Origin: Candidatus Poribacteria bacterium
GTDB lineage: Bacteria; Poribacteria; WGA-4E; WGA-3G
Direction: 5' to 3'
DNA length: 55,403 bases
Assembly (NCBI GenBank): GCA_022821965.1
Contig: JAJECN010000018.1
Span: 1-55,403, forward strand
Below are positions 13,358 through 27,207 of this stretch, one piece after another. A program made the position numbers and the translations under genes. The notes beneath the pieces were generated by a model. That model was not told the origin of the DNA. It did no database searches and saw only the letters and a list, made by a program, of their open reading frames with translations. Each line of letters opens with the position of its first letter. Within the stretch, counting starts at the first letter, position 1.

Positions 13358-14428
13358 TCATGCCAAGGTACTTTGGACTAACTCGGAAGCTTCCTGTAGC
13401 AAGGTCATACTTTGTTTCAGCCGGAAAAAGGATGCTGTGCGTAGAAGTCTTTCGGCTATGTCAACGCGGGTTTCTTTACCTGTATCAGTGTACCAATCAC
13501 GAAGAAAAGGATCATTCTCAACGGCTTTATCTTCAATATGAGGTAGAATAAGTGCAGCTGCCTCGGTTGGATCAATTTCGCGCAAGTAAGGTTTATCAAC
13601 TGAATCATCGAAATGTGGAAAGATGACCGCTTTGACCTGCGACTCCCTCGTTGTCGTTGACCCAAGAGTTTTTGTCAACTCCGCTGGGTACACCCAGATA
13701 AAACTCGGAAAATTTTGATTGCTCGAACACATTACGCGTTGATTGTGGGAATCGGGCCACCTATTAGATGGATGTTTTGCCTCTGCCACGAGTTTGAAAA
13801 ATTCAGGTTTCGATTGTTGCAGTGCCGTAACGGTATCTGTTCGGACGTTTACGGTGCGTGGCCATCCATATCCGATAAGGTGCCCATTTTCGACTCTGAT
13901 TGTCAGGTCATCATTTGACACAAACCTTGAATCTGTAGTAAGAAGTGCTGCACAAATTGACGAAGTTTTTCCAGCTTTTTTCTCACCTACGTAAGCGATA
14001 CCAGAGCCGTTGATATCGACTAAGCCTGCATGGAGAAAAAGGTCACCTGCCACAAATACCTCCCACCGGAGAATATTCCGAATCGTACGCAGCATCTGTA
14101 GCGTTCGCCAAGATCCAACCGGTTCTGCTATGAGAATCTTGCGTGTAGAATGGTCAACGAACAAAATCCTATCGGGACCATACTCGGACGGGTAGACAAT
14201 GCGTTCCCATGACTCGGAGATAGGTATGGTATCACTACCGATAATAATTGGCACATTGTGGCTGTGATTTTTGGCAGATACTGCCGATATATTAAGGAAG
14301 TCACGACACAAATTAGTTAGGTCGTTGATTGTTTTTTCGTCCGAGACGACCATCACACTACTGTAATATCCATGTATATACACCGAGTGCATATCGTCAA
14401 CAGGGAGGGAGCTACTGTGTTTGTCCAT
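13358..14428 (-). CDS. HprK-like (HPr-kinase-fold) kinase
   Basis: 356 residues. It has the HprK-type P-loop, LHAGLVDINGSGIAYVGEKK then AGKTSS (about 135-156), and an acidic FVSNDDLTI downstream. Such stand-alone kinases accompany RiPP clusters: in paeninodin-type lasso clusters a homologue phosphorylates the peptide's C-terminal Ser. Start 14428 is chosen for AAGGAAC 8 nt upstream, since the upstream ATG at 14470 has no ribosome site. It is last in an eleven-gene operon that also holds an NTP_transf_5 protein, the usual partner of such kinases. The substrate is unknown. Confidence 0.75.
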   Translation of the reverse strand: MDKHSSSLPVDDMHSVYIHGYYSSVMVVSDEKTINDLTNLCRDFLNISAVSAKNHSHNVPIIIGSDTIPISESWERIVYPSEYGPDRILFVDHSTRKILIAEPVGSWRTLQMLRTIRNILRWEVFVAGDLFLHAGLVDINGSGIAYVGEKKAGKTSSICAALLTTDSRFVSNDDLTIRVENGHLIGYGWPRTVNVRTDTVTALQQSKPEFFKLVAEAKHPSNRWPDSHNQRVMCSSNQNFPSFIWVYPAELTKTLGSTTTRESQVKAVIFPHFDDSVDKPYLREIDPTEAAALILPHIEDKAVENDPFLRDWYTDTGKETRVDIAERLLRTASFFRLKQSMTLLQEASELVQSTLA

Positions 14429-14471
14429 AGTGGTGTTCCTTAACGATTGATTATGCAGACTAGATAGCATT

Positions 14472-15185
14472 TTAGCGTTCAGCTGCGAAAGGTTGTTTTA
14501 GCCATTGTATACAAGTTTCCCTTAGGTCGTTCATTTCATTACCGTCTGCTGGATTCTTGGACCAAGGTAACTGGGCGAGAAGTGGCAACCCGATGTCTGC
14601 TGCTATCTCAGGGACTAATTCGGTGTCATACATAGCCTGCTTTTCACCACAACAGGAACATGAAAAGTGGGAATAGTTCTCAAGGATTCCGAGCATCGGC
14701 GTCTTTAGGCGCTTGTAGAAAGAGATTTGGCGTATACAGTCGGCAGCCGCTAATGGGGAACCGGTCGTGACAAATAACACGGTAGCACTCGGAAACAATT
14801 CATGAATTGCAAGGTGTATTTTTCCAGAACCAGGAGGCATGTCTATAATTAGCAAATCAAGATGACCCCACGTTACATCCTTGACAAGTTTTCGGAGTGT
14901 GCTTTGTATTACTGGGTCCGACCATACTAACGCCGTCTCTCGCTGAGCGATCCCTCCCAAAGTGACTACTTTTACACCATCAACATAAGCCGGAACGATT
15001 TCATTGTCAATGACATGCAATGGTTCGGTTTGAAATAGAATGGATTGATTCGGTCCTGATAGGTCAGCATCTAAGATTCCGATCTTTTTTCCAGCAGCCG
15101 CGAGAGACCGAGCTAAGCCAGCTGTTACTGTGCTTTTCCCAATGCCGCCCTTACCTCCGGCCACTAATAAGCATTTCTGAGGCAT
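14472..15185 (-). CDS. Mrp/MinD-family P-loop ATPase
   Basis: 237 residues with the deviant Walker A GGKGGIGKST at residue 10, ILDADLSGPNQ, LIIDMPPGSGK and a cysteine motif SCSCCGEK near residue 165, as in Mrp/NBP35 iron-sulfur carriers. It could load a cluster onto a partner, but no obvious iron-sulfur enzyme is in the operon. A plasmid-partition ParA is less likely because Mrp signatures such as GPN and CxCC are present and it sits deep in a biosynthetic operon. GGAG lies 6 nt before the ATG. Confidence 0.85.
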   Translation of the reverse strand: MPQKCLLVAGGKGGIGKSTVTAGLARSLAAAGKKIGILDADLSGPNQSILFQTEPLHVIDNEIVPAYVDGVKVVTLGGIAQRETALVWSDPVIQSTLRKLVKDVTWGHLDLLIIDMPPGSGKIHLAIHELFPSATVLFVTTGSPLAAADCIRQISFYKRLKTPMLGILENYSHFSCSCCGEKQAMYDTELVPEIAADIGLPLLAQLPWSKNPADGNEMNDLRETCIQWLKQPFAAER

Positions 15186-15197
15186 AAGTTACTCCGT

Positions 15198-16244
15198 TTA
15201 TAAGGTATGTGTAAAATTCAACTGATTCCACCAATCGGATACGATCCCAGGGAGTCCAAGGATCTGCTGCATGATATGTTCATCTTGTTCACAGCGAATG
15301 AAACTCAGTAAAATAGATTCCCACCATGCCCCTAATACGTGCACTGGCAACCATTTTAATTCCAAATTACTGAGTCGGCTGATGGCTTGGTAATTTTGCA
15401 AAAATGCGTGTGTCTCTTTGACAGGTAAGTTCAATCTAATACCTTTTCTTAATTGTGAACTTTGCCCGAGATAGTCAAGGGCGAAGAACGCGACAATTGC
15501 TTCACCCAAGTCGTGTAAGCGAGAGTCCATACAGCAATTGTCGAAATCGTAAATTGCTGTTACCTCGTTATTATGAAAAGCGATGTTCCACGGAATAAAA
15601 TCTCCATGGACAGGGAACAGAGGAAGTGATTCAGGTATTATCAAGGATTGTTGGCAATATGCCTCAAGTGTATCTAAAATACGAGAGACACCCGGTGTAC
15701 AAGTCGGTTGTTGACGCGCTAAGTTGATGTGGCTGGCAACAATCTGCGGTAGAGACTCATGAGGACTTTGTACGTCAAAATTGCATTGCGAGCCTGCCAG
15801 GTGTATTTTAGCCAGTGTCTGAGCAATCGTCTGGTTTTCAGCCGTTTTTCCTTGGTAAGAGTTCCCTGCGATATACTCAGTTAAAGTAAACTTACTGCCC
15901 TTAATTTCTATCCATGTAGTTCCCGAAGAACTCGTCAACAATCGTGGGACCGGAAGCCCCGCCTGAGCAAGGTGAATTGTAAGTTTGTGCGAAAACGCTA
16001 CAGATTGTAAATCATCGCAATACCATGGAATTTGTTTCAAGAAATAGCGTCCCTTGGAAGTTTCAACAGCCATTTTTCGACTAGTTTGGGTCTTCTCACC
16101 TAATATAACGATTCGATCGCCTTCAAGCACTACGCTATTGGCTTCGAGTAAGTTACCAACATCATAATTGGCGACCACTGTATTGAGTAGTGTTTCATCG
16201 AATAGGTCGAATTCTAATTCGATAGGCTTGCTCTTGAGTGGCAT
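15198..16244 (-). CDS. APH-family small-molecule kinase 1
   Basis: 348 residues of the aminoglycoside phosphotransferase/CotS fold. ATP-binding Lys is in GRYFLKQIPW, the catalytic loop is VHGDFIPWNIAF (about 215), and the metal-binding motif is AIYDFDNCCMD. All core residues are present, so it should be active on a hydroxyl of a sugar, amino alcohol or antibiotic. Its gene ends 12 nt before the Mrp gene. In this cluster it could phosphorylate an intermediate or inactivate the product for self-protection. Confidence 0.75.
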   Translation of the reverse strand: MPLKSKPIELEFDLFDETLLNTVVANYDVGNLLEANSVVLEGDRIVILGEKTQTSRKMAVETSKGRYFLKQIPWYCDDLQSVAFSHKLTIHLAQAGLPVPRLLTSSSGTTWIEIKGSKFTLTEYIAGNSYQGKTAENQTIAQTLAKIHLAGSQCNFDVQSPHESLPQIVASHINLARQQPTCTPGVSRILDTLEAYCQQSLIIPESLPLFPVHGDFIPWNIAFHNNEVTAIYDFDNCCMDSRLHDLGEAIVAFFALDYLGQSSQLRKGIRLNLPVKETHAFLQNYQAISRLSNLELKWLPVHVLGAWWESILLSFIRCEQDEHIMQQILGLPGIVSDWWNQLNFTHTL

Positions 16245-16303
16245 TTGGTATTAGTTCCAAGTTGTGAGGGTTCTGGTTAATGCGATATTGCGGAGGTAGG
16301 TAG

Positions 16304-16434
16304 CATACCCTCTTGATTACACCCACCGTGCAATAAAATATACAGAAGATGTTATTGAAGCTCCAATTTACTCATCACTTCATCGGGAAATCAAAAACCT
16401 TACCTTAGATAGGCGAAGAATATCAATTCCTTTA
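16304..16434 (+). pseudogene. Possible gene fragment between APH and GT2 genes
   Basis: In the 190-bp gap the plus strand is open and reads protein-like (HRAIKYTEDVIEAPIYSSLH, then REIKNLTLDRRR). There is no start or ribosome site, and the frame continues into the antisense of the GT2 gene. I do not recognise the family. It may be another remnant, like those at 6332 and 13002, or chance. Confidence 0.25.
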
Positions 16435-17484
16435 TTATCTGCCCTTTTGTCTTCTGTATTCAATATTACATCCATAAAGTTCACATTGATCTTTGGAGAG
16501 TTGGTAGTAGTCTTTCATAATTTGTTGGTTCTTATCTACTAAGTTATAGTATTGCTGAACCGTCAGATTATAAGTGTGTATGTCCCATTGTCCGGTACTT
16601 AGACGCCAATGGTGGTAGATCTCAATGCTCGGATGCTTTTGGCAAAAATAGATATAATTGCGGACTTTGCTCGCGACGTAGTCTCCATGCGATTCCCTAG
16701 AATGCATCAACCTGTAAATAACGGGATCTTTATGCAACATGAAGTTGAGACCGTGTTTATATAAACGATACCCAATCTCATAGTCTTCTAACCCCCAACC
16801 TTTAAAATTCTCATCAAAAAGACCGACTTCTACGCAATGCTTTTTTTTCACAGAAACATTCCCGGTCGTGAACAATAACCATGGAAGAACAAACTTATTC
16901 ATGTTAGCTGCATAAGTGGTGTAAACCTGATTCCAGCGCTCTTTCTCACCTGCATAAGACAATTGAACGATCCTATCTAAGTTACAACGAATATCTTGAG
17001 CGCAAATCAACATTTCGTTTTCAGGTAAATTCATCAAGTCGTATAATTTATGAGTATTCAAGAGACCCATTAAAACGGGCTTATAAGGATTAGTTTCCCG
17101 AAGCATTTGCACGTAAGTTCTATACTTATATCCAAGGATGACATGATTATCATTCCCGTGGTGATATAACATGTGGTTTTCTATGAACGTTGGGGCAGGA
17201 ACGCAGTCATCGTCAATGAAGATTATCGTTTCTCCCCTTGCATAGTGTATACCTTGATTTCTTGCCCCAGAGCGCCCTCGATTTTCTTGTTGCGTATAGT
17301 TAATTTCATAGGGGACAGACAGAGATGAAACAAGTTCTTCGGTTTGATCAGTTGACCCATCGTTGATAACGACAACTTCAAATTTATCCATCGGATACGT
17401 CTGTAACCCAAGTGCTACCAGTGTAATTTCGAGAAAATCTTTCTTGTTATATGTTGGAATGACAACACTAACGTCAATATCCAT
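16435..17484 (-). CDS. GT2-family glycosyltransferase
   Basis: 349 residues, third intact paralogue in the island. It has VSVVIPTYNKKDFLEITL at residue 4, INDGSTDQTEE, GRSGARNQG, the metal site FIDDDCVPAP and GWGLEDYEIGYRL. ATG 17484 is used because conserved residues begin there and it lies 14 nt after the preceding stop; the longer frame overlaps the upstream gene. Its C-terminal residues are copied in the remnant at 6332. It probably adds a sugar to the same product as the plus-strand GT2 enzymes. Confidence 0.85.
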   Translation of the reverse strand: MDIDVSVVIPTYNKKDFLEITLVALGLQTYPMDKFEVVVINDGSTDQTEELVSSLSVPYEINYTQQENRGRSGARNQGIHYARGETIIFIDDDCVPAPTFIENHMLYHHGNDNHVILGYKYRTYVQMLRETNPYKPVLMGLLNTHKLYDLMNLPENEMLICAQDIRCNLDRIVQLSYAGEKERWNQVYTTYAANMNKFVLPWLLFTTGNVSVKKKHCVEVGLFDENFKGWGLEDYEIGYRLYKHGLNFMLHKDPVIYRLMHSRESHGDYVASKVRNYIYFCQKHPSIEIYHHWRLSTGQWDIHTYNLTVQQYYNLVDKNQQIMKDYYQLSKDQCELYGCNIEYRRQKGR

Positions 17485-17497
17485 GCCTCTTCTCACT

Positions 17498-19015
17498 TTA
17501 TCCGCTTTTAAGCGGTAAATTTCCAGCCAAAATTGCTTGTACCTCAACTAATCGGGAGGAGACTTGATAAGCAACCCGTTGAATTTCTTTCAAAGTTTCC
17601 TCTTCCAGTTTTCCATCATAAGGACTTTGTGCATAAATTCCGTGAGGTGTAAGTAGTAATTCATACCGATGACCCGCATTCCAAGCCATTATACCCTTAC
17701 CAATCCATGCCACCGAAATTCCAGCCTTTTCAGCAAATTGTTGAACTTTTTGTAGCGAAATACGATTAATCTGCCATCGCTCTGTGCCATTTGAGGCTTC
17801 AATCGGAACAATAACAGTTCGGCGATTGGAATGCGAGGATCGAGTCTTCCGTTGCTTCCAGAGTCGATAAGGTCGTCCTGTCTGAAATAGAAAATACATG
17901 CCTAAAAGCGACTCCTTAACTGCTCTGAGAAAACTCGTGCGTTGGCGATAATAGCGATAAAGGACAAATGATTGTAAAAAGCGTCCTAAAAACAATTGTC
18001 TTCCGCCATGGAAGTTCAGGTTTAGTTTTCCGGGTCTAAAGATAAATTTTGAAGCGAGTCTCTCAAATCGATCAGGCTTCAATTTTGACGTGATTTCTTC
18101 GGGGAGTTTCGCCTCGTAATCACTTTCAAGCCGCTTTAATATCCCATACAGGATAGTTTGGAGCGTATTTTTCCGGGAAAAGTGATATAGATAATCCCAG
18201 TCCAAGTTATATTCGGTATATCTTAAACCCGCATAAATATCATTAAGCTCCTTTAAAGGAGTATATCCGTGGCGTGTAACATGCGCACATGTAATTAGAA
18301 TGCAGTCTTCCAAAGAGGGCATCAACACCTCTTGGCTACCCACCAGAAATGTGGTGGCACGCTCCCATATCTCCGATTCCAAAATGCTATCACCACATCC
18401 TGGAAATGACCCAAGATGTATATCAAACGCCCCACGATATCCATCCAAATCCATCATTTGGACAATCCCAAGTGTGTTAGCATAAACTTCTGTTGATGCC
18501 AACTCAGAGTATGGATGACTTTCCAGACGAATTCTCTTCGGATGGTACCGAATATGTTTGAAGATATCAATTCCTTTCCAAACAGTCTCTTTAGAAATCA
18601 CCAAATCTACATCTTTAAACTGTCGAAAAGATTCACTTGGATATAGATATTGTAGGCATGCCCCTTTGATAACCATGAACTTAACTGATTCTCTTTGGGC
18701 ATGTGTTGCATAGTGTTCCAAATCAGCAAGGAGCATCTCCATAATTTTCTTTTTTCTCTCCAAGTATTCCTCAGCTTGGATAAAGAATTGATCTAAAAAA
18801 GAAACTGTAGAATTTTCTTTTCTTCGACTTTGAAGATTGTAATAAACCTGAGGAACAACTGCCTGAGTCCGTGTAACACTTAATAAAGTTGTTGGATCAA
18901 GATTTTGATGTTCATTAAGTAAACACTCGATTTGATGTATTTCATCTTCTGACGGGAATAGTTTTCCTGCTAATTTCACAAGTTGATTATAAACGCCTTG
19001 ACTTTTATGAGACAT
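17498..19015 (-). CDS. NTP_transf_5-type nucleotidyltransferase
   Basis: 505 residues. FMVIKGACLQYLYPSESFRQ followed by FKDVDLVIS (about 112-140) is the nucleotidyltransferase motif hG(G/A)...R...DhDhhh of this 'uncharacterised nucleotidyltransferase' family. The C-terminal ~120 residues form a separate region (NRISLQKVQQFAEKAG...GKGIMAWNAG). Family members occur with HprK-like kinases in lasso and other RiPP clusters and can modify a phosphorylated product. Both partners are in this operon. GGAG lies 6 nt before the ATG. No lasso cyclase or leader peptidase is present. Confidence 0.75.
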   Translation of the reverse strand: MSHKSQGVYNQLVKLAGKLFPSEDEIHQIECLLNEHQNLDPTTLLSVTRTQAVVPQVYYNLQSRRKENSTVSFLDQFFIQAEEYLERKKKIMEMLLADLEHYATHAQRESVKFMVIKGACLQYLYPSESFRQFKDVDLVISKETVWKGIDIFKHIRYHPKRIRLESHPYSELASTEVYANTLGIVQMMDLDGYRGAFDIHLGSFPGCGDSILESEIWERATTFLVGSQEVLMPSLEDCILITCAHVTRHGYTPLKELNDIYAGLRYTEYNLDWDYLYHFSRKNTLQTILYGILKRLESDYEAKLPEEITSKLKPDRFERLASKFIFRPGKLNLNFHGGRQLFLGRFLQSFVLYRYYRQRTSFLRAVKESLLGMYFLFQTGRPYRLWKQRKTRSSHSNRRTVIVPIEASNGTERWQINRISLQKVQQFAEKAGISVAWIGKGIMAWNAGHRYELLLTPHGIYAQSPYDGKLEEETLKEIQRVAYQVSSRLVEVQAILAGNLPLKSG

Positions 19016-19100
19016 AAATCGCTCCGAGAGATAGAAATGTTGGGTTATTGTTTATCATTCAATTGTCATATCTCCATTGCCTTCCACGACCTAAACTACA

Positions 19101-20057
19101 TCAGGAAAAAGTGAACTTGAGCTGGTTTAAATACTCGTCCAATAACTGCAGGAGCGGTCGTTGCCGTCCCCAAGGGGTCACCTGATCTAAGGGTTGTGTT
19201 CCGAAGCGTTCTACGTATGAAAGGATCACATACGCACTCAACGCTGCATACAGAGACAGCTGCCAACATGGAAAATCTACCAGAGAGAGTAGTCTTTCCA
19301 AAACGGGTGTTTCATCAAGATGAATGAGAGCTTCTCCATAAGGATGCACTGGATCCCCGTGCCACACTACAGGTATATTGAGCATCACCAGATCGCGATG
19401 CGGAGACGTCACCATAAAATTCCTACTGTTGACATCCGCTGGAATTAGAAAGGGGTGACGTGTGAGAGGTTCTAACATTTCATCAGCCCTCTGAAATGCT
19501 TTATGGATTGCCTCAAACCGGAGGGATGCCAATCGTGGGGCTTTTTTCTTTTGACCTTTAAGATAATCTTGCATGAACATCATCCACGATGTGTACGACG
19601 GAAAATTTTCAGCCCGGGATCGACCGAATCCGGTAACAGGAACCTCGGAAAGTCGTGTAAAAATTTGGTGCATTTGGTTCGCCCACCGATTGGCATCCTG
19701 TAGATTGTAACTTTCATCTTGTAAGACCTGGTCCAGTGACACACCGTTGAGATATCGAGAGATGACCAACACCGATCCATCATCACACTGTCTCACCTTG
19801 TCTATAGGATGAAACAGTGGATCAGATCCTAATTGCGAGATGAGACGCTGCTCAAGTAGGGCATCCGAACTTGTATCCGTCAAGTGTTTAACCACGAATG
19901 AATCCGCGGATGTCTCCACTCGCCATACAGTGCTGTTAGAGGTGCTAAGGAGCCTCCACTCTCCAATAGACCCAAGTTCTCGTTGAGTTAATTGCAATAG
20001 TGCTGAACACGGGATTAAGCTCATAAGGTGCTCCGGTATATACCAGTTGTTTTTCAC
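19101..20057 (-). CDS. APH-family small-molecule kinase 2, atypical metal site
   Basis: 318 residues, kinase-like fold with FVVKHLTDTS (ATP Lys), a catalytic-loop equivalent LIPADVNSRNFMV (Asp and Asn kept, the usual HGD replaced by PAD) and WHGDPVHPYGEAL downstream. The Asp of the usual DFD/DFG motif is not obvious (MLNIPVVWHGD). It may be catalytically altered or use a shifted acid. The start overlaps the stop of the cupin gene by 4 nt, so the two are translationally coupled. It is only distantly like the kinase at 15198. Confidence 0.6.
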   Translation of the reverse strand: MKNNWYIPEHLMSLIPCSALLQLTQRELGSIGEWRLLSTSNSTVWRVETSADSFVVKHLTDTSSDALLEQRLISQLGSDPLFHPIDKVRQCDDGSVLVISRYLNGVSLDQVLQDESYNLQDANRWANQMHQIFTRLSEVPVTGFGRSRAENFPSYTSWMMFMQDYLKGQKKKAPRLASLRFEAIHKAFQRADEMLEPLTRHPFLIPADVNSRNFMVTSPHRDLVMLNIPVVWHGDPVHPYGEALIHLDETPVLERLLSLVDFPCWQLSLYAALSAYVILSYVERFGTQPLDQVTPWGRQRPLLQLLDEYLNQLKFTFS

Positions 20058-20959
20058 TCCAATTTAGCATCTGCAACAAGTTGATTTGCAAGCGTTAGAT
20101 AGTCTTGAGAAGTAAAGAAATCCGTTAAATGAGGTAGCAACGTAGCAAATTCCTCCAAGGCAGCGCGCCGTTGTTCGTCGGTACCACATACGCTGTGTGG
20201 GTAATTTCGCCAAGTAGGATCCATGATGAGTCGATTCTCAAGTGCGCGCAATAGGATTCTCAACCAATCTGGTCCTTTCATACAAAATACGAGACTCAGG
20301 CATTCTCCACTTGACTGCGTTTGGTGCCAGAACCCACGGGGTATAAATAATGCCCCGCCGGCCTCTAGGTCAAATGTCTGTGCATCATCTGGCATGTGGC
20401 TGGGAAAAGGTTTAGTGTGTGCCAACTGAAGCTGAAAAGGATCTTTTTGCTTCCGTCCTCCGGAAAGACAGACTTCTGTTTGATTAACAATGTGGTGATT
20501 TGGTGCAAGCGTCCATCGTTTTTTTCCACTAAGCACCAAATGGAAGTTCAGATCAAAGTCGCTATGCATAGATGCACCAGACTCAGCATTTGAACAAAAG
20601 ACTTCACAAGTGATCGAGTTCTTGGGCAATCCGAGGTCTTGAGTTAACTGTGATGCTACCTTATCAAGGCGTGGAACGTACCTTGCGAGGTCTCTCAGAT
20701 AGCATGTGAAGCCGCCGTTGAAAAACTTAACAGCAGTTCTCCCATTAGGCACACGCGCTGTGAAACCATCAGGCCGTTGGAGTGAGACTTCGGATGGATA
20801 GAAGTTTAGAAGTGCTTCTGCTGAATCTAAATAGTCTATCTCGTATAACGGCTGAAAACGGCTGCTTGCTCCAGTTGTCACATAAAGACGATCGGGCCAG
20901 AAATCTGTAATAAATTTTTCCGTTGACAGAGGATGCAAGATTGTCCCTACATCAAACAT
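20054..20959 (-). CDS. Cupin/JmjC-type 2-oxoglutarate oxygenase
   Basis: 301 residues of the Cupin_4/ribosomal-oxygenase-like family. The iron site is visible: SMHSDFDLNFHLVLSGKKRW gives the HxD pair, and LFIPRGFWHQT gives the distal His. Such enzymes hydroxylate Arg, His, Asn or Asp side chains or free amino acids. In this operon, beside an Asx-tRNA-synthetase-like enzyme and a PLP decarboxylase, beta-hydroxylation of the product or a building block is the simplest proposal. GGAGG lies 10 nt before the ATG. Confidence 0.8.
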   Translation of the reverse strand: MFDVGTILHPLSTEKFITDFWPDRLYVTTGASSRFQPLYEIDYLDSAEALLNFYPSEVSLQRPDGFTARVPNGRTAVKFFNGGFTCYLRDLARYVPRLDKVASQLTQDLGLPKNSITCEVFCSNAESGASMHSDFDLNFHLVLSGKKRWTLAPNHHIVNQTEVCLSGGRKQKDPFQLQLAHTKPFPSHMPDDAQTFDLEAGGALFIPRGFWHQTQSSGECLSLVFCMKGPDWLRILLRALENRLIMDPTWRNYPHSVCGTDEQRRAALEEFATLLPHLTDFFTSQDYLTLANQLVADAKLE

Positions 20960-20992
20960 TATGGTAATACCTCCATATTTATAAATTACGTG

Positions 20993-22033
20993 TCAGACAA
21001 CAGCTGCCTCAAGAAGTTCAAGTCGGACAGACTCATCAACGGTCAATCGACATTGTACACCCATGGGAAGAGTCAGTATAGGATCGATGTGACCGAACTC
21101 AATATCCATGGCGATGGGTACTGTTTGTTTAATTGGTAGCCGGTTTATGATGAATTTAACTGCGTCGGTGGACCAACGTTGTGTTGTGAGTTGTCGGAAA
21201 CGTCCCCATGCCAGGGCTGCGACCCAACTAAAAACGTCTAAATCTGCCAGAAGTTCCAAGTCCATACAGAAGGCGTTGAAACTTGTCGTGTCCGATGCCT
21301 CCAAGAGCAACACACACCCTTGTAGGTTGGGAATGTTATCACCCGCACGAAGTATGTTAGCAAATGTGGCAAGGTTCGCTGCGACGAGTGGACCCTCAGC
21401 TACACCGCGACGTAGCGGAAAACGAGCAGTGTGTGCTTTCTGATCACGCCGACGGTCATCCTCAATGTCCCACTCTAAATACTCGGTTACACAAATGCCG
21501 CTTTCTGGCAATTCTCCAACAGGGAGTACAGACGTAACGACAGAGATGAAGTGATTCCATGTGAAGTCAAAGCATCCGCCAACTTCTCCAAACTGGGGCA
21601 GTGCAGCAGGTCCATAGAATGTAATGAGTCCGGTTTGAGCCCAAATCCAAAGAAGCACTGAGGTAGTATCACTATATCCCACAAGGATTGTAGGATGTGC
21701 CCGCAGTATTGATAGATCCAGTTCGGGCAAAATCTCCGAGGCTCCGGTACCACCGATACTTGTGACTATAGCCTTGACTGAGGGATCTATCATCATGGTG
21801 TGTAAATCTTTAGCACGATCTCTGGCTTCTCCAGCTCGCGTGCCTGTATCCAAGCCAGTAGAGACTCCGAGACGTACTTTCAATCCCTTTGATTCGAGAT
21901 ATTCAACGGCTCTTTGTAGCCTACGAGGGCACCGAGCGGCGAGAGGTCCTGAGAGGGATACAATGCCGATCGTATCACCTTCTTGAAGCAACGGGGGCTG
22001 TTGATTGAAAAACGGACTGTCTTTGGGATTCAC
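20993..22033 (-). CDS. MccF-type S66 serine peptidase, likely immunity
   Basis: 346 residues, peptidase family S66. The triad can be placed: Ser121 in VGYSDTT, Glu245 in LLLEASDT and His315 in EFGHIDP. As I recall the literature, E. coli MccF uses Ser118/Glu243/His311 and LD-carboxypeptidase LdcA Ser115/Glu217/His285. The spacing here matches MccF, not LdcA. MccF cleaves the amide between aminoacyl and nucleotide parts of microcin C, giving immunity. Position inside a biosynthetic operon supports self-protection or a processing role; cell-wall recycling is less likely. Confidence 0.8.
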   Translation of the reverse strand: MNPKDSPFFNQQPPLLQEGDTIGIVSLSGPLAARCPRRLQRAVEYLESKGLKVRLGVSTGLDTGTRAGEARDRAKDLHTMMIDPSVKAIVTSIGGTGASEILPELDLSILRAHPTILVGYSDTTSVLLWIWAQTGLITFYGPAALPQFGEVGGCFDFTWNHFISVVTSVLPVGELPESGICVTEYLEWDIEDDRRRDQKAHTARFPLRRGVAEGPLVAANLATFANILRAGDNIPNLQGCVLLLEASDTTSFNAFCMDLELLADLDVFSWVAALAWGRFRQLTTQRWSTDAVKFIINRLPIKQTVPIAMDIEFGHIDPILTLPMGVQCRLTVDESVRLELLEAAVV

Positions 22034-22124
22034 TTGAATCTACTCCGGATGAAAATCGATATGAAAAATGCACGCTACTCTGAGCGTATGTAGTTATACC
22101 TGGGCGATGGCGATCTGACCTTAA

Positions 22125-23156
22125 TTACAACCAAGTTCTCGTATTCTTTAATCTCGGCATGACGTGGAGATCTCGAATATCATTGTGTTGAAGCACCCAG
22201 AGTAGGAATCTTTCAAGCCCTAAACCAAAACCTGCTGTCCGGAGCGGATACTTATTCTTCATCTGCACGTACCATTCGTAGTCGGCAACAGGGACTTGAT
22301 GTTCTTCCAATCCAAGGCGCACGTCTTCACCAGTTGTGTGGCGTTCACCACACCCGACTGTCTCCCCGATACCGATCAGTAAATCAGCACACTCCACGGT
22401 TAGTCCATTGGTAGACTTCGCTTGGTAGAAAGGTGCTATCAAGCGTGGAAAATGTGTTAGCCAGACAACCCCGAAATGATCAATAAGCTTCTTCTCACCT
22501 AATCTTGTGATCAACGGTATACCTTCTGGACTGCGTATGAAATACTCGTCTCCCAAAAACTTCATGGACTCTGCGAAAGTAATTCGTGGAAACTCCGACA
22601 TCGATTGGAGACATTCCAAGTGTGTTATACCACCAGCAACCTGCGAGATATTGTCTACCAAAGGCGTCGCACACAAGGCTATCGTTAGTGAACGTAAATA
22701 GTTCTCAACCAGAACTATAACATCATCGAATCCTCCAACTATCTCAGCTTCAGAGTGGAAGAACTGATTCAGATGCGTAACATCTGAATCTTCACCACGG
22801 AAAGTTGGCATAATATAAAAGGCACCCTCTATACCGTGTCTGAGGAAGAATTCGAGTTGAAACTGCATCGAATCCGCAAGGAAAGTTGGCTCTCCGAATA
22901 ATTCGATCTCTACTGGTAGGCTATCACTACCGATTCCCATAGGGCTTGATATAGAACCAACTGTTATTGGCATGAGAACCGGTATGATTTCCTGCTGACG
23001 GTAGAAGTCAAATGTGGCATTAACAAGAGTAGCATTTACATGTGTGATAAGACGGTACCATGGTTGTGCCATCGCTGCCTCAAAGTGCTGCTCCGGCGAA
23101 GCCCAACAGGATGGCGGTGCCATATTTCCGTTCCAATTTAATGAAGTAAGAGCCAT
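22125..23156 (-). CDS. Stand-alone AsnRS/AspRS-like catalytic core
   Basis: 343 residues with class II tRNA-synthetase motifs of the Asx/Lys subclass: motif 2 in IMPTFRGEDSDVTHLNQFF then HSEAEI (about 113-140), and motif 3 in GFGLGLERFLLWV near the C-terminus. The N-terminal OB-fold anticodon-binding domain is absent, so it should not charge tRNA normally. Such paralogues activate an amino acid as adenylate and pass it to another acceptor, or make asparagine (AsnA-like). Next to an MccF homologue it may build, or be a decoy for, an aspartyl-adenylate-like antimetabolite. AAGGA precedes the ATG. Confidence 0.8.
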   Translation of the reverse strand: MALTSLNWNGNMAPPSCWASPEQHFEAAMAQPWYRLITHVNATLVNATFDFYRQQEIIPVLMPITVGSISSPMGIGSDSLPVEIELFGEPTFLADSMQFQLEFFLRHGIEGAFYIMPTFRGEDSDVTHLNQFFHSEAEIVGGFDDVIVLVENYLRSLTIALCATPLVDNISQVAGGITHLECLQSMSEFPRITFAESMKFLGDEYFIRSPEGIPLITRLGEKKLIDHFGVVWLTHFPRLIAPFYQAKSTNGLTVECADLLIGIGETVGCGERHTTGEDVRLGLEEHQVPVADYEWYVQMKNKYPLRTAGFGLGLERFLLWVLQHNDIRDLHVMPRLKNTRTWL

Positions 23157-23238
23157 AATTTATCCTTGTTATTTGTATTCGTTAATTGTGAAAAAACTTA
23201 TTTTTTCTACACTTGTAGCGAATTCCTGTTTGTCCAGT

Positions 23239-24606
23239 CTATGCATTTGTGGTTTTCGGCGGATCCAAAAAAGCGCTAAAGTCATATTGATAGTAGGCGC
23301 GTAGCATGTCTCGGTGCTCAGCATCGCCGAACAACGTCCGCACACTATTAGAGTCGTAGTAGAGGATCCGTGGAAGTCGGAATGCCCATAATTCGGCGAA
23401 GACAGTCGTATAAGCCCCGCAGTTTAATATCGCGAGTGTCCGCCCTTCCTCACCTATAGGTAATTTCACCTTCTCACAGAGCCGAGAGGGGGCACCGGTA
23501 GAATCACCTACATCATAATCTGTCCACATGGCATTGCTCTTGGGGGGCAATCGAGTCGGTATAGGATGATAAGCTATCTCCTGTAACGGAATGAGTATGT
23601 TTGAACCGAGTTCCGTGATCCGCCAATTCCGTTGGGCATTGCGTTTTTCGCCAGTTACACCCGTCAACCCGACAGCTGCATCAGCAACAATATGTCTACC
23701 AGGTTCAATGCATAACTGAAAATCATATCCAACAGCATCCAATTCCGCTGCGACTACCTCTGCGAACATAGAGGCATCCAATCCTCTGCGCTTTAGCAAG
23801 TATCGCGTATCAAGCCCTCCACCAATGTCAATCATAGAGAAGGAAAACCCAAAGTGCTTTGTTACTTCCTGAGCGACTCTGGCGATTCCACGCATCGTTG
23901 ATCGATAGGTATTGAGGTCGTTAGCGTGAGTTAACTGATGGGCATGGAGTGTGTAGAGTTGGCAGTTAGGCGCATGCAGTGCATTCTCTAACAATCGAAA
24001 AAAACACCCCTTCTCCCAATCAACTCCCAACTTAGAGGATTTGCCAATATAACGAGCGTTATCATCAGCAAGCGGTGTGACTCGAACCCCAATCTTTACC
24101 TGTACCCCCGCTGCTACAGCCGCCGCCGAAACTCTGTTCAGGTCTTCTTGCGAATCAATAACCACCATACCAACCGGAGGGGTTACAGTTGCCTGAACAT
24201 ATGCGGAGGATCTACCAATACCGTTGGAAATGATTTTGTCATCAGGACACCCTAGGGCACGTGCAAGTTCTACCTCCATATGACTCATTACTTCCATTCC
24301 AGCACCGAGCTGCAATAACTCTTCAACTACTGGTCTGAGGTAACATGATTTCAGAGCAAAGTAAGTTTTCAAGGACGGAAACCATCTACGAAAAGCAGTG
24401 TCAATATCAATATAGTTATCCCGAATTCGGCTTGCTATGTAGATGATTAGTGGGACCTGTTCGGCAGAATAGAGATCATGAGCATCCAAGGACCCAACTC
24501 GCAGGCGTCCATCTTCGTACTGAAGAATTGGCAAGAGTTTGTCAATGGCTTCAATTTCGCCTTGTTCAAGACCTTGCAGATCATACGCAGCGGTTTTGGG
24601 ATTCAT
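23239..24606 (-). CDS. Fold-type III PLP decarboxylase (LysA/ODC-like)
   Basis: 455 residues. The PLP Lys lies in TYFALKSCYLRP (about residue 86). Further family marks are MIDIGGGLDTRY, CIEPGRHIVADA (phosphate-binding EPGR) and ILNCGAYTTV. The specificity segment reads VGDSTGAPSRLCEKV instead of the typical CESGD, so the substrate probably differs from diaminopimelate. Decarboxylation of an amino-acid side chain recalls the MccE N-terminal domain of microcin C maturation. GGAGACGTA precedes the ATG. It is second in the operon after the methyltransferase. Confidence 0.8.
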   Translation of the reverse strand: MNPKTAAYDLQGLEQGEIEAIDKLLPILQYEDGRLRVGSLDAHDLYSAEQVPLIIYIASRIRDNYIDIDTAFRRWFPSLKTYFALKSCYLRPVVEELLQLGAGMEVMSHMEVELARALGCPDDKIISNGIGRSSAYVQATVTPPVGMVVIDSQEDLNRVSAAAVAAGVQVKIGVRVTPLADDNARYIGKSSKLGVDWEKGCFFRLLENALHAPNCQLYTLHAHQLTHANDLNTYRSTMRGIARVAQEVTKHFGFSFSMIDIGGGLDTRYLLKRRGLDASMFAEVVAAELDAVGYDFQLCIEPGRHIVADAAVGLTGVTGEKRNAQRNWRITELGSNILIPLQEIAYHPIPTRLPPKSNAMWTDYDVGDSTGAPSRLCEKVKLPIGEEGRTLAILNCGAYTTVFAELWAFRLPRILYYDSNSVRTLFGDAEHRDMLRAYYQYDFSAFLDPPKTTNA

Positions 24607-24640
24607 TACGTCTCCAAAAAGTTCGGACCTTGAGAATTAG

Positions 24641-25474
24641 TTAAGTGTATAATGATGGCTCGTCCCCTGTATTCACTCGACGAAATACCAATATAGAATA
24701 ACTAAGGTACTTCATGTTCTCGTTGAACACATGAAAAATATCAACCAACCGTTCTATGAGCACTTCCTTTGCAGAATCTGTCCAGTCAGTGGCTGCATAA
24801 TCAGCCATTCGCTGGCAATATTCCTTGATTTCGGTGGTGCTGCGTGCCCCAGCTTCAGCATCGAAAACGCAATAGGGCTGCAGGAGCTCGTGCTCGAACA
24901 CTTTAAACCAGTACGAACGGGGATAGCAAGGCACTTCTACCTCTATTACCTCTGATACCTTCTGTAGAAGGGATTTCGGTGGTTGGGTATGGTAATAGAA
25001 CTCTGCATCGGCGAGCAACCCATAAGGGCGTGTCACTCGCACCCATTCCTGAATTGCTCGGGTATGCCCATCAACAAATGCAAGTGCCCCGCCGGAAAGA
25101 ACTACATCAAATGAGTTATCAACAAAAGACATTGATCGCATATCTTGGCATTCATAACTAAGAATATCATCAAGTTCTTCAACCACCATGCGTCTACGTG
25201 CTGCCTCAACCATATCCGCTGAGATATCGATTCCAATGATATTGCATCCAGAACGACGTGCGATCTCTCGGCTTAGGAATCCGGCATTACAGCCGGCATG
25301 TAGAACGCTCACGTCAGAACCAAGGTGACAGTCTAAGATCAAACGTCGTACCGTGTCCAAGCCCCCTGGTGGAAGATTCGATTCACCGAGCATTGCCAAA
25401 AGTTTCACGTATGGCCATGAACGCACTTCTTCAGCAGTCACGGGGGTCATTGAACAATTTTTTCTCATTAGCAT
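24641..25474 (-). CDS. Class I SAM-dependent methyltransferase
   Basis: About 277 residues. Motif I is VSVLHAGCNAGFLSREIA, the acidic loop is GIDISADMVEAARRR, and motif IV is DVVLSGGALAFVDG. It could methylate or, like MccD, move the 3-amino-3-carboxypropyl group of SAM; the sequence cannot decide. Start 25474 is chosen for GGAGGG 13-14 nt upstream; GTG 25528 and ATG 25450 are alternatives. It is first in the eleven-gene minus-strand operon. No copy of the 28-kb regulon motif precedes it. Confidence 0.75.
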   Translation of the reverse strand: MLMRKNCSMTPVTAEEVRSWPYVKLLAMLGESNLPPGGLDTVRRLILDCHLGSDVSVLHAGCNAGFLSREIARRSGCNIIGIDISADMVEAARRRMVVEELDDILSYECQDMRSMSFVDNSFDVVLSGGALAFVDGHTRAIQEWVRVTRPYGLLADAEFYYHTQPPKSLLQKVSEVIEVEVPCYPRSYWFKVFEHELLQPYCVFDAEAGARSTTEIKEYCQRMADYAATDWTDSAKEVLIERLVDIFHVFNENMKYLSYSILVFRRVNTGDEPSLYT

Positions 25475-25568
25475 TAGAGATGTTAATCCCTCCATTGTAT
25501 TGCTGCAGAGTTTGTGTGTTTTTGTCACTATTGTGCCCTAAAAAGTCAATCTCTGCTTCCTAATTATT

Positions 25569-25730
25569 TTATTCATGTCCTTCCTGGGTTAAAGGAGAGA
25601 GGTGAATCGCTGCGATGTCTACATCAATATATCCACTAAAAAATTCAGCCGCAAAGTTCAGTTGACGGCGATCGTTTCCGATGTCGTCGCGCCAGCCCTG
25701 AAATCCCCGGTAGCGGCGCGGCGGGTCAAA
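25569..25730 (-). pseudogene. C-terminal fragment of an unknown protein
   Basis: Starting in another frame across the stop of the ABC permease, about 54 codons stay open to a TAA. They read like real protein (DPPRRYRGFQGWRDDIGNDR, then RQLNFAAEFFSGYIDVD) with G/C-rich third positions unlike the island to its left. There is no start or ribosome site. It is probably the tail of a lost gene at the boundary between the two regions. Confidence 0.35.
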
Positions 25731-27153
25731 TATCAGAACGGAAGAATTTCAGAAACGCCATCATCGTAAATGTTAAACCAAAAAAACCGAGTAAGAACAC
25801 ATCTACTACAGAGCGACGCAATGTGTCCGATAAAGTAGGTTCCGTCAGGGTGGGGGGCGGCAGGATTTTTTCTGTTTCTGATTCAGAAGAATTATTCAGC
25901 CGATTCGCCATTTGTAGGATCTGTTCGAGCGCGTTGTCTGAAATTTCGCTGAAATAAGAGTCATCAAGTTGACTATAATATCTCTCCCCTGTTTGGAAGT
26001 AGAGATCCCTTTTTAACTTACCCGTTTGTGTTAGGTTTATCGCAGAATAGATCAGAGAGGACGTGGGCGCGATCCGAGAGAGCATTTCTCCAACTTGCTC
26101 TTGGCGGTCCTTTTGACGCTGGTATTCCTTGTCAATCTTGTTTGTCTGATTCTGGAACTTCAGTCGAAATTCCTCGTCAATCGGTTTTCTGATCTCGTCC
26201 AAGCTTTTTTCTGTCTCTGGTGTCATATGGAAATTGAGCCCCAGGGTTTCACGCACTTTTTTATCAAACTTCTCTTGTTGATCTTTCGTCAGGTTATTGC
26301 GAAGTGTCATTTTTTCCGTATAAACAACCTGATGTGTTTGGGTAGGTGAAATGAGTTTAGCTACCACAAAAGCACCCCGTGGGGCGATCAACACGGCAAA
26401 CACCCAGAACGTAAAAGCAACCATCAGGGCGGTCTTGGAGCTATCCAGATACACTGAGATGAACATACCTATTGCAAAAAATACCGCAATATAAAGTAAC
26501 GCGATAAGCGTGAGACCCAACACGGGGGCAGCAATCCCGAATTCACCTAAAGGAAATCCCTGCCCGACGAGTATGAGTAATCCTAAGAGGAAAGACACCA
26601 GAAATGGAACGACAAACACAATGTATCCACCGATTAACTTACTCCACAAAAACATGTCTCGAGGCAGGGAATTTGACAGGTTTATCCGAAGCGTACCTGC
26701 TTCTTTCTCTCCAGCAACAGCATCAAACGTGAACAAGAGTGCCAGTAGACTGAAAACCGTCCCGACAATAAATAGGAAATCCAGATTTCCTAATACATAG
26801 GCGAGGGATGCTTGAGTAAGTCCCGTTGAACCCTGCCGAACGCCATTACGCGTCATTCCAAGATAGGTTGGCAGTACCTCGGTTAAACCGTTTGCGAAGA
26901 CGCTCAAAGGTGTGGGTTTGAGAAAAAGTTTGGAAACTTCTGTGTTTGGGTTTTGGGCATTCGGAGGATTTTCCTTGGCTTCTGTCCGTTCGCGTTTCAC
27001 CGACTCTTGATAGGCTGTCAAGTTCTGGCTATACTTGCGATAACTGATAGAAAGGGTAAGTGGGATAAGCAAAATACACATCAGCAGAAGTGCGACAAAT
27101 CGGACACTCAAAACATGATGCATGATCTCTTTCTGAATCAAGGTCATTAACAT
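25726..27153 (-). CDS. ABC-2-type transporter permease with large periplasmic loop
   Basis: About 475 residues. The first transmembrane helix (FVALLLMCILLIPLTLSISY) is followed by a long polar loop, four central helices (about 150-290), another charged Gln/Lys-rich loop and a last helix near the C-terminus. This is the layout of ABC-2 permeases with an ectodomain. It has no ATPase of its own; the only free ABC ATPase is at 38840. ATG 27153 has AAGGAG 8 nt upstream. It is last in the unit that starts with the peptide gene at 33103, so it may move the modified peptide. Confidence 0.75.
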   Translation of the reverse strand: MLMTLIQKEIMHHVLSVRFVALLLMCILLIPLTLSISYRKYSQNLTAYQESVKRERTEAKENPPNAQNPNTEVSKLFLKPTPLSVFANGLTEVLPTYLGMTRNGVRQGSTGLTQASLAYVLGNLDFLFIVGTVFSLLALLFTFDAVAGEKEAGTLRINLSNSLPRDMFLWSKLIGGYIVFVVPFLVSFLLGLLILVGQGFPLGEFGIAAPVLGLTLIALLYIAVFFAIGMFISVYLDSSKTALMVAFTFWVFAVLIAPRGAFVVAKLISPTQTHQVVYTEKMTLRNNLTKDQQEKFDKKVRETLGLNFHMTPETEKSLDEIRKPIDEEFRLKFQNQTNKIDKEYQRQKDRQEQVGEMLSRIAPTSSLIYSAINLTQTGKLKRDLYFQTGERYYSQLDDSYFSEISDNALEQILQMANRLNNSSESETEKILPPPTLTEPTLSDTLRRSVVDVFLLGFFGLTFTMMAFLKFFRSDI

Positions 27154-27207
27154 GATAACTTCTCCTTTGGACACCTTTTACCGAACTCAGGTTATTGTGG
27201 ATTGAAG

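Follow-up and report, generated by a model that had tools for sequence, protein, structure and literature searches.

The window, the 55,403-nt stretch of Candidatus Poribacteria contig JAJECN010000018.1 analyzed here, carries on its minus strand, at approximately 13358-25528, what is probably an AgnA-type gene cluster for a phosphorus-nitrogen (P-N)-linked aminoacyl-nucleotide inhibitor together with an MccF-type immunity peptidase; we put the probability of this reading at roughly 0.72. It is built around four genes that an earlier note on this DNA had singled out, encoding an S66 peptidase, a core resembling the aspartyl- and asparaginyl-tRNA synthetases (AspRS and AsnRS, or Asx type), a LysA-type decarboxylase and an S-adenosylmethionine (SAM)-dependent enzyme. 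By scanning the window, all four were found to be real and adjacent on the minus strand, and the gene spacing suggests that the minus-strand run to which they belong is a single operon of approximately 12 kb. The four genes are listed below; AgnB1 is a label coined here for the SAM enzyme whose gene lies between agnA and agnB2.

24641-25528, minus strand: SAM-dependent enzyme of the AgnB1/MccD family (295 aa; Methyltransf_11; start codon uncertain)
23239-24606, minus strand: pyridoxal phosphate (PLP)-dependent decarboxylase with the LysA fold and an altered substrate motif (455 aa; Orn_Arg_deC_N)
22125-23156, minus strand: AgnA-type synthetase with an AsnRS-like class II catalytic core (343 aa; assigned by AgnA homology, tree, motifs and fold)
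20993-22033, minus strand: MccF-type S66 serine peptidase, predicted immunity enzyme (346 aa; assigned by MccF matches, triad, Trp loop and fold)

In a search of plasmid records, the synthetase-like protein matched the product of agnA, the "Agrocin84-synthetase" gene of pAgK84, at 39% identity over 93% of the query, and further homologues were found on plasmids of Peribacillus, Exiguobacterium, Xenorhabdus, Pantoea, Streptomyces and Bradyrhizobium. In the corresponding tree, 23 AgnA-like proteins, with AgnA of pAgK84 inside the group, are split from E. coli AsnRS and from the AspRS and lysyl-tRNA synthetase (LysRS) of the host at 98/98. The window protein lies in a 99/99 branch with four close Streptomyces proteins, the Streptomyces protein of locus L004 and one alphaproteobacterial protein, and it stands at 57-59% to its Streptomyces counterparts in loci L002-L006. 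The sequences SSPMGxGSDSxP, HSE after motif 2, and GxGER are common to the AgnA-like members and absent in E. coli AsnRS. Motif 2 Arg120 and motif 3 Arg316 are kept, the N-terminal anticodon-binding domain is absent, and the predicted fold (mean predicted local distance difference test score, pLDDT, 80.8) superposes on AsnRS 1x54 with Z 32 and 3.1 Å over 318 residues; the motifs and the fold thus bear out the proposal of an Asx-tRNA-synthetase core without its tRNA-binding domain. Similarly, a review (PMC4392301), citing Kim et al. 2006, presents agnA as a truncated AsnRS homologue that lacks the anticodon-binding domain and reads it as an antibiotic biosynthetic enzyme. Judged from its sequence, the window protein is a member of the AgnA-type family, for which catalysis of P-N bond formation is predicted.

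The same protein could instead be an enzyme of the asparagine synthetase A type, in which the acyl-adenylate is passed to ammonia to give asparagine or an amide building block for another metabolite. Its best NCBIfam models do carry that name (PRK06462), it superposes on archaeal asparagine synthetase A with Z values of approximately 26-27, and the genome has neither an AsnB above the cut-off nor an AsnRS. However, the score of 219 bits lies below the model cut-off of 322, the AsnRS cores fit better, and the family of the protein includes AgnA of agrocin 84 and occurs together with MccF-type peptidases and extra aminoacyl-tRNA synthetases (aaRSs). In addition, the gene occurs in only one of the 85 genomes of the phylum that were searched (the other 84 are without it), and it is therefore not the source of asparagine for this lineage. 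Based on these results, plain asparagine synthetase is considered improbable. The same distribution means that the AgnA-like gene is accessory and was probably acquired horizontally. The host genome, of 5.7 Mb, also contains 145 phytanoyl-CoA dioxygenase (PhyH) domain matches.

The S66 peptidase, which the earlier note had taken to be of the MccF type, agrees with that assignment in its sequence matches, its catalytic residues and its predicted fold. Its best matches among PDB sequences are MccF proteins (E 2e-44), whereas LdcA-type proteins are matched at approximately 1e-13 to 1e-9, and its score against the LdcA NCBIfam equivalog is 84 bits, below the cut-off of 378. The protein retains the triad Ser121/Glu245/His315 and has the loop with a Trp aligned to MccF Trp186, which is absent in E. 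coli LdcA; Trp188 is nearly invariant among the S66 proteins linked to AgnA-like genes. The MccF numbering used here (Ser118/Trp186) matches the titles of MccF mutant structure entries. The sequence tree is too deep for placement of the protein with MccF or LdcA, pairing it only with the S66 protein of L004 (100/100), and the folds were therefore compared. The model of the window peptidase (mean pLDDT 90.5) gives Z values of 42-45 against MccF-clade structures (one at 38) and of 25-35 against LdcA-type structures, LdcA itself lying at 32-35, so that the predicted fold goes against a grouping with LdcA. According to this model, the enzyme is of the MccF type and not of the LdcA type, and cleavage of an aminoacyl-nucleotide is predicted for it; MccF itself hydrolyses the aspartyl-AMP bond (PMC7916415).

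The SAM enzyme matches AgnB1 (31%, E 7e-44) and E. coli MccD (25% identity, E 2e-22), both over nearly the full length (blastp), which agrees with the relationship to MccD originally suggested for it. Its relatives adjoin AgnA-like genes in Peribacillus, Xenorhabdus, Exiguobacterium, Streptomyces and Methanovirga. In microcin C biosynthesis, MccD and the PLP domain of MccE put an aminopropyl group on the phosphate (PMC10491745), and by analogy the window enzyme is predicted to act on a nucleotide phosphate. On the other hand, the comparison of the neighboring decarboxylase with MccE was not supported. The decarboxylase belongs to the same fold family as MccE and is no closer to it than to LysA/diaminopimelate (DAP) decarboxylase, LysA appearing the nearer of the two; in the tree it shares a branch, at 94/95 (moderate support; the branches are long), with the enzymes of the Streptomyces AgnA clusters, and MccE lies apart from it. 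Its score against the DAP decarboxylase model TIGR01048 is 158 bits, below the cut-off of 298, and the CESxD substrate motif of DAP decarboxylase is lost, with the PLP Lys and the PLP-binding residues kept. Aminopropylation by the SAM enzyme and the decarboxylase together is a reasonable inference by analogy, for which the grounds are position and chemistry and not ancestry.

These two proteins, the S66 peptidase and the decarboxylase, could also be read as parts of a cell-envelope locus, the former being an LD-carboxypeptidase and the latter a DAP decarboxylase among glycosyltransferases. The window family scan does show glycosyltransferases and an outer membrane efflux protein near the cluster, and the depth of the S66 sequence tree leaves room for such a reading. 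Against it, the S66 fold is approximately 8 or more Z units closer to most MccF structures than to LdcA, the genome encodes a separate housekeeping LysA elsewhere (G000:C19), the window decarboxylase is without CESxD, and many related clusters carry aaRSs; a cell-envelope function is accordingly most improbable.

The AgnA-type reading is further supported by linkage. Within approximately 10 kb of the AgnA-like gene, an S66 gene was found in 19 of 23 loci, comprising 13/13 from the genome collection (one of these S66 neighbors is a fragment at the end of its stretch) and 6/10 from plasmids. Because the expected chance of an S66 neighbor is approximately 0.2-2% per locus, the pairing is not due to chance, even though several loci are close relatives and not fully independent. 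The linked loci span Streptomyces, Xenorhabdus, Peribacillus, Bradyrhizobium and a methanogen. The larger gene set is also found elsewhere: the window has six genes in common with the Streptomyces CB02923 cluster (L004), namely those for the AgnA-like protein, S66, Mrp, APH2, APH1 and HprK, and six in common with L002, L003, L005 and L006, namely those for the AgnA-like protein, S66, Mrp, APH2, the decarboxylase and the SAM enzyme.

Several of the related loci have features of their own. In Candidatus Methanovirga (L013:2356-8276), an AgnA-like gene occurs with genes for an AgnB1/MccD-type SAM enzyme, an S66 protein and two ATP-grasp proteins, and from the gene content this appears to be an agrocin-type cluster in an archaeon. 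On Pantoea agglomerans plasmids (L021:11413-13008), the AgnA-like domain is preceded, within one fusion protein, by a region that carries a GNAT acetyltransferase annotation. On a Calothrix plasmid (L044:472-2427), the gene for an S66 peptidase directly follows that for a 335-aa LysRS-like protein, and the two may form a parallel system built on a different synthetase core. On a Cytobacillus megaplasmid (L032:5992-10123), an S66 protein 36% identical to that of the window is encoded near a methionine--tRNA ligase gene.

Many AgnA-like loci carry a second aaRS, of the Leu, Ala, Cys or Gly type. The linked leucyl-tRNA synthetase (LeuRS) of pAgK84 is AgnB2, the self-resistance synthetase of agrocin 84 (PMC5059758, PMC7916415), and a LeuRS is also linked in Xenorhabdus; by analogy, the second aaRSs of the other loci would fit the same self-resistance logic. 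The Streptomyces stelliscabiei, scabiei and alanosinicus cluster (L003:10997-19382, with relatives L002, L005 and L006) encodes a thymidylate-kinase-like protein, a decarboxylase, a SAM enzyme and an S66 protein. In the L003, L005 and L006 genomes the cluster carries a second full-length cysteinyl-tRNA synthetase (CysRS), and each genome has, besides this copy, a better-scoring CysRS and a third, MshC-sized homologue; the L003-type cluster is thus a candidate source of a CysRS-directed compound. Similarly, plasmids of Peribacillus (L022:7810-14430) and Exiguobacterium (L027:7945-18856) encode an AgnA-like protein, a truncated protein resembling alanyl-tRNA synthetase (AlaRS) and a second, full AlaRS, an arrangement pointing to AlaRS-directed products. 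At L011:1351-6791 and L014:13331-18735, both AgnA-type loci, a fused alpha-beta copy of glycyl-tRNA synthetase (GlyRS) and an AlaRS-like fragment lie beside S66; the GlyRS is fused in L011 and has its homologue in L014. In other loci, truncated Ala- or Pro-type synthetases are linked to AgnA-like genes.

One form of the AgnA-type reading proposes a common substrate for these enzymes. The Arg of the AsnRS/AspRS GGSxR motif binds the Asx side chain, and Arg272, which occupies its position in the window protein, is kept in 23/23 members. Because this residue is invariant even in AgnA of agrocin 84, it may be proposed that AgnA enzymes share Asn or Asp as the nitrogen or acyl donor and that a second aaRS-like protein, such as the truncated Ala- and Pro-type synthetases, brings in the specific amino acid; the window cluster, which lacks such a second protein, would then make an Asx-type nucleotide directed against AspRS/AsnRS. 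However, the conserved Arg272 may serve another role, and the AgnA-like protein has lost the Glu of the "EG" motif of AsnRS, within a region that is modelled with low confidence. This specific form is considered rather unlikely.

The remaining genes of the run lie downstream of the S66 gene, and one further gene lies upstream of the SAM enzyme gene:

20054-20959, minus strand: JmjC/cupin_8 2-oxoglutarate dioxygenase, predicted hydroxylase (Cupin_8 and JmjC_2; HxD...H as HSD, FWHQ)
19101-20057, minus strand: APH-type kinase 1 (PF01636; homologue in the Streptomyces CB02923 cluster L004, E 1.6e-57)
17498-19015, minus strand: NTP_transf_5 nucleotidyltransferase-like protein (PF14907, E 7e-26; no homologue in the compared loci)
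16435-17547, minus strand: GT2 glycosyltransferase (PF00535, E 1.6e-28)
15198-16244, minus strand: APH-type kinase 2 (PF01636; homologues in L002-L006, E 4e-50 to 3e-32)
14472-15185, minus strand: Mrp/NUBPL-type P-loop ATPase (PF10609, E 4e-60; homologues in L002-L006)
13358-14470, minus strand: HprK-related P-loop protein, the last gene of the run (weak TIGR00679; L004 homologue, E 1.7e-73)
25726-27174, minus strand: ABC-2 permease (PF12679; no homologue in the compared loci), a possible exporter whose membership of the cluster is uncertain

Elsewhere in the window, at 40512-43460, sigma-70 regions 2 and 4 are joined to a Vps10/BNR beta-propeller in one protein.

No ThiF-family, MccB-like adenylase was found among the 34 window proteins scanned for domain families, in line with the earlier note, and its suggestion that the synthetase core stands in for MccB is very likely correct, this being the solution found in agrocin 84. 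A different use of such a core would be in a peptide-nucleotide of the microcin C kind, with the AgnA-like protein taking the place of MccB and acting on the C-terminal Asn of a ribosomal peptide. In favor of this, the window encodes an MccF-type and an MccD-family protein. Nevertheless, the gaps of the operon contain no convincing short open reading frame for an MccA-like precursor (ending in Asn, with a ribosome site), there is no ThiF protein, and agrocin 84, the characterized product of the family, has no peptide (PMC4392301, PMC7916415). A peptide-nucleotide is therefore very unlikely.

From the homologies, retained catalytic residues, fold class and conserved linkage observed above, we infer for the AgnA-type cluster the following chemical steps, product and target. 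Using ATP, the AgnA-like synthetase would link the nitrogen of an amino-acid-like carboxamide to the 5'-phosphate of a nucleotide. The resulting N-acyl phosphoramidate would mimic an aminoacyl-adenylate and be non-hydrolysable, and neither a peptide precursor nor MccB would be needed to make it. The MccD/AgnB1-family SAM enzyme would then modify the phosphate with an aminocarboxypropyl or methyl group, and the PLP decarboxylase would perhaps trim the added group to aminopropyl, as in the MccD/MccE pathway of microcin C. Decoration by the JmjC enzyme, the kinases, the glycosyltransferase and the nucleotidyltransferase-like protein may follow. Finally, the MccF-type S66 enzyme would protect the producer by cutting the acyl group off the nucleotide, and the target would be some aaRS of competitors.

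Several points weigh against this proposal. To our knowledge, the reaction of AgnA itself is predicted and has never been reconstituted. It does not explain what the Mrp, HprK-like and NTP_transf_5 proteins and the two APH proteins do, and the agrocin genes compared beyond agnA, agnB1 and agnC5 found no match among the 15 window proteins used. The decarboxylase was also tried as a relative of MccE, a reading that the comparison and the grouping with the Streptomyces cluster enzymes did not support. No second or self-resistant aaRS occurs among the 34 window proteins. In the host genome, no cluster-linked extra aaRS was found for AspRS/AsnRS/LysRS, class Ia (Ile/Leu/Val/Met) or class IIa (Ser/Thr/Pro/Gly/His), with CysRS, AlaRS and others not searched. 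A divergent protein resembling isoleucyl-tRNA synthetase (G000:C7:43537-46194, L038) was considered as the resistance enzyme and rejected, as it is found genus-wide and in much of the order. The genome is 95% complete, and a missing gene is therefore weak evidence.

The claim that the locus represents a new route to such antibiotics is not sustained: the AgnA and AgnC5 pair is already present in the agrocin 84 cluster, and AgnA is already proposed in a passage of PMC4392301 to be an AsnRS-derived synthetase. What is new here is the gene combination, the lineage of the host and how widely the AgnA-MccF family extends; no description of this family was found in the open-access literature searched, most subscription papers and preprints being outside that coverage. 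It is possible, though doubtful, that the window encodes an agrocin/microcin C hybrid, in which an AgnA-type P-N bond is formed without a peptide and the MccD-type SAM enzyme, with a PLP decarboxylase of other descent, adds aminopropyl. Its product would be an aminopropylated aminoacyl-nucleotide, possibly of the Asx type, from an uncultured phylum, and the cluster would be a branch of a wide AgnA-MccF family that includes archaea and whose targets are indicated by the linked aaRS. Only a few antibiotics of the phosphoramidate nucleotide class are known, and the results suggest that AgnA marks a far broader family, extending over Streptomyces, enterobacteria, bacilli, rhizobia, a methanogen and Poribacteria. 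In many of these loci the second aaRS would reveal the enzyme hit by the product, so that inhibitors of synthetases of the Ala, Cys, Gly, Leu and Pro types could be sought directly by genome mining, and the function of AgnA becomes testable on many homologues.

Among the known systems, microcin C (mccABCDEF) resembles the window in its MccF-type peptidase, its MccD-family SAM enzyme and a PLP decarboxylase adjoining the SAM enzyme gene. It differs in that the window is without a precursor peptide, MccB/ThiF or an acetyltransferase domain and that its decarboxylase has no special closeness to MccE. Phosmidosine of Streptomyces has the same predicted product class, a phosphoramidate nucleotide. 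All five Streptomyces AgnA-type clusters (L002-L006) have the AgnA-like protein, S66, Mrp and APH2, as in the window, and L003, L005 and L006 differ from it in their second CysRS. The likeness to the agrocin 84 cluster of pAgK84 lies in an AgnA-type AsnRS core without the anticodon domain, an AgnB1-type SAM enzyme and the "MccF-like" S66 protein AgnC5; TM84 carries a 5' N-acyl phosphoramidate (PMC5059758). Compared with that cluster, the window is without the LeuRS-type resistance gene (AgnB2) and has in addition the PLP decarboxylase, JmjC, Mrp, HprK-like and NTP_transf_5 proteins and the two APH kinases. Agrocin 84 is an antibiotic used in the biocontrol of crown gall, and the genes of the cluster, with a synthetase of the type that makes it, look as if they were built to make, and to survive, an activated-amino-acid mimic that jams protein synthesis.

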